Shown: one piece after another, positions 19,962 to 52,050 of the stretch
Layout: every line of letters begins with the position of its first letter
Numbering within the stretch: the stretch's first letter is position 1
Source: Telopea speciosissima
Lineage: Eukaryota > Streptophyta > Magnoliopsida > Proteales > Proteaceae
Length of the DNA stretch: 64,000 nt
Reading direction: 5' to 3'
NCBI RefSeq assembly: GCF_018873765.1
Contig: NC_057926.1
Coordinates: forward strand, 56,185,378 to 56,249,377
Position numbers and translations under genes: made by a program
Notes under the pieces: generated by a model
What the model was told of the DNA's origin: nothing
The model's database searches: none
What the model saw: only the letters and a program-made list of their open reading frames with translations

Positions 19962-20138
19962 GGGATTTGGCTTTGGTGCAGCACCCTGCCCGTGCTGCAC
20001 CTGTAGCGGCAGACACAGTGAGGTGTGCAAAAACCACCTTACCCTTACCCAAGCAAGGGTAAAGCGGTCTTTGCACGTCTCGTCGTGTCTGGCGTTGCAC
20101 GTGCAGCACGGACAGGGTGCTGCAGAGGAGCCTTTCCC
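19962..20138. repeat. Hairpin MITE, 177 bp
   Basis: Near-perfect inverted repeat: left arm GCAGCACCCTGCCCGTGCTG, GCAGACAC and GTGCAAA is matched by the reverse complement of the right arm (GCAGCACCCTGTCCGTGCTG, CCAGACAC, GTGCAAA). Outer tips are GGG and CCC, and the tip GGGATTTGGCTTTGGTGCAG resembles that of the element at 51849. Flanks are A-rich and only partly alike (CTCAAATA and AAAAAATA). It lies about 550 bp upstream of the QSOX start codon. Confidence 0.8.
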
Positions 20139-20688
20139 AAAAAATAAGGCATAATTATCTGTTCACATGAAGAAAGAGAGAGACACCTGAGACCTCTCGC
20201 ATAGGCCATGTTTCTAGACAAAGTTATTTTTCTTTTGTATTTTTCTTTCAAGGAAGTAGCGAGTTTTAGAGGTTGTCGCAACAAATCTAGGTGTCACGAA
20301 TATAAGTTACATTTATACAAAATATTAGTTTAATTTTCACCAGGTTTGGTTACATTTAGAAAAAGTATTAGGTTTAATTGTAAATAATTATTTTGGAGGG
20401 GGGGGGGGGGGGGAATGAATCAGTTTCATACGCATCGCTAATAGATGTTACAGAAACATCAAAAAATAGATCCATTAACACTTCCGACCTCTGAAATCTT
20501 TGAGGGTTTAAAATTAAGAAAAATTCTGAGTATTGGTTGATTTGGTTCCCACTTCCTCGTCTCCTTCGAACGTTGATTTTGCCCGGCAAATGGAATTTCC
20601 TAAAACCCTAATCTAATGTTCTGTCTGAGAGACTATTGTAGTTGTAACTGTTTCTCCATATTACAATTGCTTCTACTCTTTCTTTTCT
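20139..20688 (+). promoter_or_regulatory. QSOX upstream region
   Basis: About 550 bp containing a G17-18 run near 20397-20414 and a CT-rich leader just before the ATG at 20689. No clear TATA box; core promoter position not decided. Confidence 0.35.
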
Positions 20689-23600
20689 ATGTCTTCGATT
20701 CTCCTTCTCTTCCTTTTGCTTCTCCTGAGCTTCCAGGTGTCATCCGTTTCCGTTGGATCGCGTGCGATCCTTCGGACACTCAGCGGCCCTGATATTCCAG
20801 ATGCAGCTGCTGATTTGAACAACACCAGTTTTGATGAAGTTCTCAAGAACTCTCCCGCTACCTTCTCCATCGTGGAATTCTTTGCTCATTGGTATGTATA
20901 TTACACAGATCAGAAAATTTTTATTTTTGGGTTTTAATTTTTCCCTCCAACATGTTTCAGTTAGTGATAAGTGCGAAAGTTTTCGTTTCTGTTTGTGTTC
21001 AGCTGCTATCTTTGATATAGGGATGGATAACGGGTTCCGGATTTGTTGCGAGATTTACAATTTTGGATTGCTTATAAATTTAACTTTAAGTTGCTCCAGG
21101 AATGGTTGTAGTATCTTCTTTATCCTCCTAAGATCATTTTATTTAGTGCTGGAAGAGATGCATATATTGGTTCGACTGTGAGGCTATCACGAATTTTTGA
21201 GAGTTGGGAATGTGGTTCTTCTTTATTCTTTGAGCTTCTTAGGATTTTGTGTATTCATTTGTTTGTGATTATCGTTGTTTTCACAATTTTGAGTATAATG
21301 ATATAATCAAGAGAGATACTAGTTTATCTGTTCTGGAGTTGATAAGTTTTCCTTGTTAATTTACTGTAAGAAGTTAGTAGAATTTAGCTACTATAAAAAA
21401 TCAATCCGAGGATAGAGAAATATGAATTTTTTTTTGAGGGGGCGGGGGGTTGGGAACAACTCAAAACTAGTTTGTCTGTCTCATTTGAGCTTGCTCAGGG
21501 CACTAGGTGGGCCACTTTTTCTCCCAACAATCTCTGTCTAGGGCTTAGGTGATATTCATGAAGAATCAATGTTATTGAGAGGAAGAAATGAACAATAAGA
21601 GTGAAGTAGCGATTAAGCATTGGGAAAGTGTTGGAGAAGGATGGTTTAGGATTTCAATAAGTTGGGGTGAACATCAGGAGTCAGGTTTAAGAGAGCGCTA
21701 ACCTTGTTAGATTGTAAGTTGAATATAGGAGGAAAATCATGGGTTCATTTTCATTATGGTTCTGATGAAGTCTTCTCTAGAAATTTGAAATGTCTCATTT
21801 TGTTGCACTGTTTGTATGTTGTTTGGAATTCTAATCCTATACAAATATTATTTTTGCAGGTGTCCTGCTTGCAGAAATTACAAGGTATAGTATGCTACAT
21901 TTTGGGTGTACCATCCATCATTTTATATTTTTATTTAACTCTGATTATTGATTTTTTTTTTTTCAACTTGAGCCATTATGCAGCCTCATTATGAAAAGGT
22001 TGCAAGGCTTTTCAATGGACCTGATGCAGCACATCCTGGAGTTGTATTCATGGCGAGGGTAGACTGTGCATCGAAGGTATATGGCCATGGTTTCTTCAAG
22101 GGTTTTGTAACTATGTAGCCTTAAAACCACTTGTTCATGAAACAGATAAATTCATCTTTGAGCTTGTTCATAGTTTCTTATCTTCCTGCTTTTCTCTTTT
22201 TTTTTTCCCCCATTCTAATAGTCCCTCTCTTTTTTGAATGTGTGGCAGCACAGATAAATACAAAGCTCTGTGATAGATTTTCAGTTGGCCATTATCCTAT
22301 GCTCCTTTGGGGTCCTCCATCTAAATTTGCATCTGGTGGTTGGGAACCTAAACAAGACAAAAGCGAAATACGTCTCATTGATGATGGACGGACAGCTGAT
22401 CGCCTTCTTAATTGGATTAATAAGCAATTGGGAAGGTATGTACACCTAAGTATGATATTTGTATTCTTAGTCGGGCACCATACTGGAAGAGACATGTAAC
22501 AGCTGCAACCGAAGTAACTTATTTATTGACATTTGAAGTGTTTTTTTAGTTTTTGTTTTGGTTTAGAATAGCTGTCTTAAGTGGTCTATGTGGAACAAAT
22601 ATTTTTTTGAACATGTTGAAACTTATATTGAAGGTTTTCGCTTCATGTAGAACAAATATCTGAAATTTTTGTTGTTTCTTTCTTGATTTTTGTTCTATTT
22701 GATTGGTCAGGCTTCCTTAAAAGCATTTTCTGTTGGGAGAGCTACTGAACTTGATGAAGAAACTGTTCTGTAGCAATAAAAAACCTTGTAGTTTTAGTAG
22801 CTCCATCAAAATTAACAAGATAGATACTGCTGATGTTGCACCAAGAGTCCAGGAAACTAATATTTTGACCATGCTTCTAATTGCGTCTTGTTTTTGGTAT
22901 TTGAAATATTGGAAAAATAATTTTGTGCTTGAACCGGACCGATCAATTCTGGTATTTTTATTTTGTTCTCTTGTTTGCTATAATTCCATGTGGAGGAGAT
23001 GTAGGAGGTCCACATCTATGGACTAGGGCTCAAAGGGCTAGGCTTGATCTTCAATCTATTCGAGTTTTTATTGGCTCTATTCTGCATCACTCTTTTCCAG
23101 TGTCCCAGCATTTGACTTCTAAGTGTGATACCATGATAATAATCTGCAACTTTGAGTATCTCCCTTGTTCTTGCAGATAGTCACCACGATACTTTCCCTC
23201 CATCCATCAAGTTTCTTAGCTGATTGTTGTTCTCCCTAGATTCTGTAAGAACCTTTGCTACTGTTTTAAACTAGCAATGACATTCCACTTTGTGTCTATT
23301 CTTTTTCTGAGTTATATTTTCTTTTATTCATGGGATAAAGGATTCTGTCCGGGAGTGTGGCCCCTGCACCCAGACACAAGGTGGGGCAAAATGACCACCC
23401 TGCCCCCATGAAGGCTGAAATCCTGTCCCTTTTGATGCTTTCACACGCCCTCCCATTGGCCCGCATGCTGGCGTAGGGGCCACTCTCCCAGACAGAACGC
23501 GTTCCCTTTATTTATTTATAAAATGCTGTTAGATTCTCAGCTTTTTAGTTCCATTGTCTAATCCTTGGGTATCAAATCTCCATTTCTTTTCTCTTCCATG

Positions 23601-50630: not shown

Positions 50631-51690
50631 CTTTTTTTCGAATAAGGAAAGAATTATATTAAGGAATAGAAAAAGATTTACATCCTATGGTAGAGATGAC
50701 TTGAAGCATCTTTGGTAGCAAGATGCAACAAGGGGTGGGGAAGGGAGTCTATATGGAGAACTATCTTAGTAGGAGAATGGACAAATTTGGCAAGCCAATT
50801 TGCACAATGGTTACCTTCCGTATAACAAAATTGGAAGGAGCAAGAACTAAAAGAGGATGCTATACACTTGATTTGAAAAATGGTTTCCCAGGCTTGCCAA
50901 TGAGAAGAAGCGCTTCCCTTGATCCCCTCCACCACAGCTTTAGAATCTGAGTATCCCAAATCTCTTGTAGATTCTAACCCACAAAGGATAGCTAATAACT
51001 CAACATGATAAATGGAGACGGAGGCATGAGCCCCAGCTTTGGCGAAGACTATAGAACCATCCTTGAGTCTCCCGATGCAGCCAAAGGCACCCAACCCGTC
51101 TCTCATTCATCTGTCACAGTTAATAGCAAGGTAACCATCAGGAGAGGGGATCCACTTATGAAAGGTCATTTTCCTGGGAGAGAACTGCACATGAATTCCC
51201 CAATTTGTGAAAAAACTTCTGTTGTAGGCATTATCCACCACCTTGCCCTTGAAATTGGAGAATCTAAGTCTTGTGTCCCTGATGATGGAGAGAAGAACCG
51301 TCTTGGGAGGTTGGATGGAGGAGCCATGCGCTTGGCCATTGCGCTCTTGCCAAACACGGTAAATTGTGGCACATAAGCTATATTTCTTTATAATCTGAGC
51401 CGGATGGTTGCCCGAGAAGTGGAGGAGCAGCCAAGCTAACTCATCCTGCCAAGTATGACTATGAGCTGGGTTCCTAGTGTAACCATTTAACTTAAGGACT
51501 TCCTTTCTCTCTCTCTCTCTCTCTCTCTCTCTCTCTCTCTCTCTCTCTCTCTCTCTCTCACACACACACACACACACACACACACACACACACACACACA
51601 CAAGCGTGATCGATGATCCTGAAGAAGTTGTTACATCCAAATGTGGGAGACCATAACCGTGATTGGTCACTGATCTCAAGCCGCACTATT
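50631..51690 (-). mobile_element. L1-type LINE 3' part with RNase H domain
   Basis: Minus-strand frame 51107-51679 gives IYRVWQERNGQAHGSS (the zf-RVT-to-linker region) and HKWIPSPDGYLAINCDR, leading into 50678-51106: GLGAFGCIGRLKDGSIVFA, YHVELLAILCGLESTRDLGY, SDSKAVVEGI and YTEGNHCANWLAKF. These are the ordered motifs of the plant L1-associated RNase H (RVT_3) domain. The 3' tail is the T run at 50631-50637 (A run on the minus strand). The upstream part of the long frame runs through a (CT)n(CA)n microsatellite at 51507-51601. 5'-truncated. Confidence 0.8.
51507..51601. repeat. Compound microsatellite (CT)n(CA)n
   Basis: About 52 bp of CT units directly followed by about 42 bp of CA units. 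It stays open in the minus-strand frame as Glu-Arg and Cys-Val repeats, and lies at the 5' side of the L1 fragment. Confidence 0.95.
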
Positions 51691-51848
51691 CCTTTAACGT
51701 TCACTAATGCTCTAGCTTTAACTTCCTTTTGGATATCCAAGAGACTTGTATCAATGTTGCAATGACATATCGGGGACATTGTTTGTCTCTGGTCGGGGCT
51801 GGGCCACAGGATAAGAGTACAAGACCATAGAAGAATGATCACAAAAAT

Positions 51849-52050
51849 GGACTTGGCTCTGGTGCAGCCGTGGCGAGAGCTGCACAGGGGCAACACAAAA
51901 ACCACACCATATACAGGAGGGTGGTCATTTCACATGTGGGGCCTAGGTGAGACCCACCTATGAAATGACTACCTTACCCCTGGTTTTACTGTCGTTTAGC
52001 GGTGCTGCACCTGTGCAGCTTCTGCCACGACTGCACATGATCTTTTTCCC
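51849..52050. repeat. Hairpin MITE, 202 bp
   Basis: Left arm GGTGCAGCCGTGGCGAGAGC, TGCACAGG is matched by the reverse complement of the right arm (TGTGCAGTCGTGGCAGAAGC, TGCACAGG), and the centre by GGTGGTCATTTCA versus TGAAATGACTACC. CACAAAAAT flanks both ends exactly (51840-51848, 52051-52059): a 9-bp target duplication. Tips GGA/TCCC-like; related at its tip to the element at 19962. Confidence 0.88.

Follow-up and report, generated by a model that had tools for sequence, protein, structure and literature searches.

How did a 64-kb stretch of the Telopea speciosissima genome come to hold a series of short elements that can each fold into a hairpin? The stretch (G000:C11:56185378-56249377, hereafter the window) belongs to an assembly of 822.9 Mb in 1287 contigs. 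A first-pass annotation had listed nine hairpins in it as miniature inverted-repeat transposable elements (MITEs). The hairpins are very probably non-autonomous MITEs of the Mutator type, that is, of the Mutator-like element (MULE) superfamily, moved in trans and forming families that descend from near-perfectly paired founders. They are new families of a known kind, and their modular architecture is the interesting, unproven part. The hairpins are given below by window coordinates; none is assigned to a strand, and families are named after their copy in the window.

3004..3341: outer hairpin MITE of the 2995 nest; duplications at 2995-3003 GCCGGATCC and 3342-3350 GCTGGATCC, 8/9; tips CAATTTGGATCCTCTACT and GGATTCAGATCATCTGTA
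3084..3250: inner hairpin MITE, inserted in the outer one; duplications TACCCCTAT and TACCCCTGC, 7/9
19962..20138: hairpin MITE of family F19962, with tips GGGATTTGGCTTTGGTGC and GGGAAAGGCTCCTCTGCA; lacks a clear target duplication, 3/9 at its GGG/CCC ends
23332..23506: hairpin MITE, family F23332; duplication TTTATTCAT and TTTATTTAT, 8/9
26852..27021: doubtful hairpin (26855 below); fold z -4.2; duplication only CTTAGTCA/CTTAGTGA, by eye; no common tip signature seen
32322..32484: hairpin MITE; duplication TCAACTTT, 8/8, or 8/9 with the right end shifted by one base; GATCCTCT in both tips
43610..43779: hairpin MITE; duplication GAGAAGTG, 8/8, or 8/9 with the right end shifted by one base
48838..48974: hairpin MITE, family F48838; duplication CTTAATTAT, 9/9 here, 8 bases at the family end CCC (48975)
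50329..50465: hairpin MITE, same family as 48838; duplication ATAATCTAT, 9/9
51849..52050: hairpin MITE, family F51849; duplication CACAAAAAT, 9/9

For 48838, 50329 and 51849, the 9/9 duplications are read with the right end picked within one base of the family end.

Target Duplications and Genome Copies

The length of the target duplication was determined with element ends anchored on family tip sequence, since loose ends had blurred the length, and with swapped flanks as control; the copies used are the best-scoring ones. Flank identity peaks at 9 bp in F48838 (0.87 versus 0.42 swapped), where 21 of 25 copies have at most one mismatch, and again at 9 bp in F23332 (0.66 versus 0.41; at most one mismatch in 11/30). 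The peak in F51849 spans 9-10 bp (0.54 and 0.51 versus 0.26 and 0.25 swapped), with at most one mismatch in 7 and 9 of 30 copies, respectively. A 9-base target duplication is a mark of Mutator, and its presence in three families points to the MULE superfamily and away from hAT. The same 9-nt duplication is given for MULEs in the available part of PMC4486113. Duplications of 8-9 bp had been claimed for the hairpins; their existence stands, and where 25-30 copies of a family were read (F48838, F23332 and F51849) they measure 9 bp, or 9-10 bp in the last of these, and not 8.

A family-blind scan is in keeping with this length. Of 38 hairpins detected in sequence flanking MITE copies, 18 carry, no further than 25 bases from the core, a 9-bp duplication mismatched at one position at most, compared with 6.7% of 2280 random intervals, and a perfect 9-bp duplication is found in nine of the 38 versus 0.6% of the random intervals.

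Target composition separates the families. F48838 and F23332 insert into AT-rich sites: the A+T content of the left duplication is 93% in F48838 and 94% in F23332 and that of the right 90% and 84%, against 54% on both sides in F51849 and 62-65% in the flanks (Mann-Whitney 1.5e-9 for F48838 versus F51849). The duplications of F19962, the ends of which are uncertain, have 56% A+T on the left and 68% on the right. Two kinds of target, one AT-rich and one with 54% A+T, point to more than a single enzyme or lineage behind the mobilisation.

The 40 best candidates of each family were scored, and among them were found the inverted ends, MITE size and many copies typical of Mutator-type MITEs. First-look searches gave 189 candidates for F19962, 732 for F23332, 644 for F51849, 3223 for F48838, 1693 for F43610 and 324 for F32322, totals that are not copy counts. 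Copies of the searched families are spread across C1-C11 taken together. The F43610 query was 174 bases long and began at the left limit; homology in 38 of the 39 further scored copies stops at its positions 166-173, backing the right limit. The F32322 query included flank on both sides, and homology in most copies stops near the element limits. In F48838, F23332 and F51849, the copies do not present the picture of absent duplications and unrelated ends that the first-pass annotation had named as speaking against its proposal.

Part of the F32322 number reflects segmental duplication, because ten copies are clustered in C1:22179428-22319879 (140 kb) and three of the steps between them are ∼5.4 kb. 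The segment at this location is duplicated in tandem and seems to carry a 32322-like hairpin. At C8:65261667-65262090, three 32322-like hairpins adjoin one another in steps of ∼150 bp. A tandem pair of F23332 hairpins lies 15 bases apart at L032:1496-1865; both outer flanks contain ATGTTTT, and the pair is perhaps one composite insertion.

Hairpins of the Window

In RNA folding, all nine listed stretches lie below their dinucleotide shuffles (60 each; z -2.9 to -11.5), and four stretches refolded against 200 shuffles give z -3.6 to -9.9, bearing out the hairpin structure first read from the letters. A gapped inverted-repeat scan at a threshold of 36 bits finds six hairpins in the window, every one already listed, and none in each of three block-shuffled windows; 23332, 26855 and 50329 are not picked up at this threshold. 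A target duplication, numerous genome copies or the two together are found for eight of the nine; 26855 is the doubtful exception.

The stretch at 2995 had been described as a single 360-bp element. This reading is ruled out, as its inner part matches stand-alone hairpins and each of the two nested hairpins has its own approximate duplication. Positions 3087-3250 match a 175-bp hairpin elsewhere, in locus L068, at 75% and a hairpin in locus L061 at 80%. To the left and right of the inner hairpin, the sequence aligns with a third family of hairpins, represented in locus L087.

The density of hairpins had also been called unusual. At the same 36-bit threshold the window holds six in 64 kb (0.94 per 10 kb), compared with 38 in 258,720 bases of flank at 88 other loci (1.47 per 10 kb), a biased control in that this sequence adjoins MITE copies. 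Hairpin density in the window looks ordinary for this plant genome.

Tips, Core, and Arms

The claim of several MITE families with differing arms and some common tip and core sequence is supported. A single family with common arms was considered for all hairpins and is not borne out by alignments, though 48838 and 50329 belong to one family (83% identity across 126 bases). The foldback group, which had been left without a name, is Mutator-type.

Two short motifs recur. They were first spotted by eye on part of the data that were then counted, and some of the counted hairpins belong to the same family, so the rates are descriptive and do not constitute a test. Of 47 hairpins examined, 24 had a duplication found by the script, yielding 48 tips, two of which are wrong because the script placed the 43610 duplication within a G run; no duplication was found by the script for 2995, 19962 or 26855. 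GATYCTCT is matched at 7 or 8 of its 8 letters in 14 of the 48 tips (0.7% of shuffled tips) and at six letters or more in 21 (8.2% of shuffled tips), and 11 of the 14 best matches are placed 7-8 bases inside the element end. The inner motif TGACCACCYTRCCCC is matched at 13 or more of 15 letters in 13 of 48 hairpins versus 0.04% of shuffles, some of the 13 being members of one family. In the region from tip to core, many families cannot be aligned with one another, and some have common segments in either orientation.

The majority sequences of F19962, F51849 and F48838 fold to near-perfect stems over most of their length. In single copies from the window, complementarity between the arms is 70-81%, so the founders would have been better paired than present copies. 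A few bases from the ends, mismatches are fixed: symmetry at tip positions 4-6 is found in 0/25 copies of F48838, at 4-7 in 0-10% and at 9 in none of the copies of F51849, and at 5-7 in 0/7 copies of F19962; F23332 is less clean, with 3-40% at 6-11.

Paired changes were counted in two of the four alignments, against structures that were themselves derived from the consensus of those alignments, a choice that favors paired changes. F51849 has 23 such cells versus 13.7 (standard deviation 3.1) in shuffled alignments and F19962 has 17 versus 9.7 (standard deviation 2.4), values that two of 500 shuffles reach in each case. Most are CpG-like changes from C:G/G:C to U:A/A:U, and a coupled C:G to A:U change marks three of the seven F19962 copies. 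Homogenization of the arms after insertion was considered and is weakly supported. Departures from pairing are mostly one-sided or unpaired cells.

Putative Mobilizing Enzyme and Longer Elements

MULE transposase domains are abundant across the genome. All 150 scored matches to the MULE domain PF10551 lie above the cut-off, many within long open frames, out of 826 first-look candidates. Among 63 open frames of at least 125 amino acids in the fetched loci, the 10 longest contain no MULE transposase; they match PPR twice, one transferase and zf-RVT, and six have no family.

Three longer elements with long inverted ends lie in the window:

43801..45697, no strand assigned: Pack-MULE candidate adjoining hairpin 43610, with ∼240-bp inverted ends and kelch gene fragments on the + strand
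32542-34049: element of 1.5 kb whose inverted ends are 228 bp long (82%); T-rich flanks, tips GGGTTTTTTAGAAATGCC
3718-5686: 2-kb element with ∼399-bp inverted ends (88%)

The left tip of the Pack-MULE candidate (GGATTTTTTTCCTCGAAGG) and its right tip, read inwards (GGATTTTTTTCCTCTAAGG), resemble the hairpin tips by eye. Its kelch sequence is in two frame pieces (Kelch_FKB95, 2.5e-19; Kelch_1, 1.6e-13; three of ten pieces scanned with Pfam), and Pfam detects no F-box part. Across the three elements, six of 25 frame pieces were scanned, and besides kelch nothing exceeds the Pfam cut-off, including one of six pieces in 32542-34049 and two of nine in 3718-5686. One further frame piece of these elements has no match in PDB. 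Elsewhere in the window, 10324-10917 on the - strand holds a reverse transcriptase fragment (RVT_1, 6.8e-11).

Origin of the Hairpins

The proposed course of events begins with a MULE transposase supplied from elsewhere in the genome, which would recognize the hairpin ends, excise the element and reinsert it. A 9-bp staggered cut at the target would then give rise to the target duplication. Each family may have spread from a founder with near-perfectly complementary arms, and its copies would subsequently have decayed separately, chiefly through one-sided changes. Ends and core may also have been retained through replacement or rebuilding of the arms, as suggested by the tip and core sequence common to some families with differing arms.

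Several observations weigh against this account. PF10551 also matches domesticated MULE-derived host genes, and no autonomous element with the hairpin tips was seen, the sequence around the MULE domains lying outside what was read. The duplication of F19962 peaks at 7 bp (0.63 versus 0.27; 3/7 copies) and falls to 0.38 versus 0.25 at 9 bp, although its ends were probably set too far out. More than half of the tips (27/48) match GATYCTCT at fewer than six letters, and the motif is poorly matched in the families with the strongest 9-bp evidence: the two tips of the window copies match at 6 and 5 of 8 letters in F48838, 4 and 6 in F51849, and 7 and 5 in F23332. Lastly, the F23332 consensus is near-perfectly paired only in its outer ∼40 bases and not inside.

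The window copies of 43610 and 32322, which read as 8 bp, likewise tell against a Mutator origin and raise that of hAT-type MITEs, moved by a hAT transposase, which leaves duplications of 8 bp; 48838 also has 8 identical bases when read to its family end. At the family level an 8-bp duplication is not seen in the three families with 25-30 copies: F48838 (0.47 versus 0.43) and F23332 (0.45 versus 0.40) are near the swapped control at that length, and F51849 (0.35 versus 0.25) falls far under its 0.54 at 9 bp. Duplication length rules out a hAT origin for these three families, and for the hairpins as a whole it is very unlikely. It is exceedingly unlikely that the hairpins are not transposons at all and arose independently by local inverted duplication. 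That different families' arms fail to align over much of their length would be consistent with such an origin, as would the segmental duplication behind the ten F32322 copies on C1, but copies extend across C1-C11 taken together, and duplications at fixed ends contradict it for F48838, F23332 and F51849.

Selection for small-RNA or microRNA (miRNA) loci might instead have kept the hairpins, making them more than mobile parasites. Their stable folds and the modest excess of paired changes in F51849 and F19962 could be read in this way, and eudicot MITE-derived miRNAs are mostly of Mutator origin according to the main text of PMC12550479. Departures from pairing are, however, mainly one-sided or unpaired, as in free decay, and the paired changes are mostly of the C:G/G:C to U:A/A:U kind that copies of different age can give, which leaves selection of this sort very unlikely.

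Within the preferred account of Mutator-type MITEs moved in trans, a more specific proposal is a modular lineage, in which a MULE system keeps tip and core, and the arms between them are time and again exchanged for newly made, perfect inverted copies. The copying would use one arm as the template for the other, proceed from the core towards the tip and halt a few bases before the end, so leaving a fixed tip asymmetry. This proposal is tentative and on balance rather unlikely. If true, it would constitute a birth mechanism for foldback MITEs, in which old ends that remain mobile acquire new hairpin-RNA sequence. Some common tip and core sequence, differing arms and fixed near-end mismatches together provide a signature that allows a test for arm-remaking in any genome.

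Comparison with Known Systems

The literature library searched contains no paper joining MITE, Proteaceae and Mutator, and the main text of a survey of 207 plant genomes (PMC12550479) names neither Telopea, Proteaceae nor Macadamia. According to that text, Mutator MITEs are the commonest MITE class (41.5%) and the source of 68.5% of eudicot MITE-derived miRNAs, and the seeding of small-RNA loci is plausible for Mutator MITEs in general.

The closest relative in kind seen among described systems is MuTAnT of Medicago truncatula. The available part of PMC4486113 describes a foldback MULE of 292 bp with 144-bp arms, GGGG/CCCC ends and 218 related elements, which generates a 9-nt duplication at AT-rich (TA-repeat) targets and has an autonomous partner, AutoMuTAnT. 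As portrayed there, MuTAnT is a single family with a partner, whereas Telopea has several families that differ in their arms and fall into two kinds by target, and no partner was seen. The MuTAnT tip mask is unlike the Telopea hairpin tips by eye, and the likeness is otherwise one of description, not of sequence comparison: both are foldback MULEs of MITE size with 9-nt duplications and, in two of the Telopea families, AT-rich targets.

The FARE foldback elements of Arabidopsis, to judge from the same part of PMC4486113, have long palindromic ends and are now classed as MULEs; they too are likened by description only. Pack-MULEs and MULEs with duplicated ends, as treated in the available part of PMC3310237, differ from the Telopea hairpins, in which gene fragments were neither searched for nor seen. 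They resemble the Telopea elements in their long inverted ends, in gene acquisition, to be compared with 43801-45697, and in their rearranged ends.

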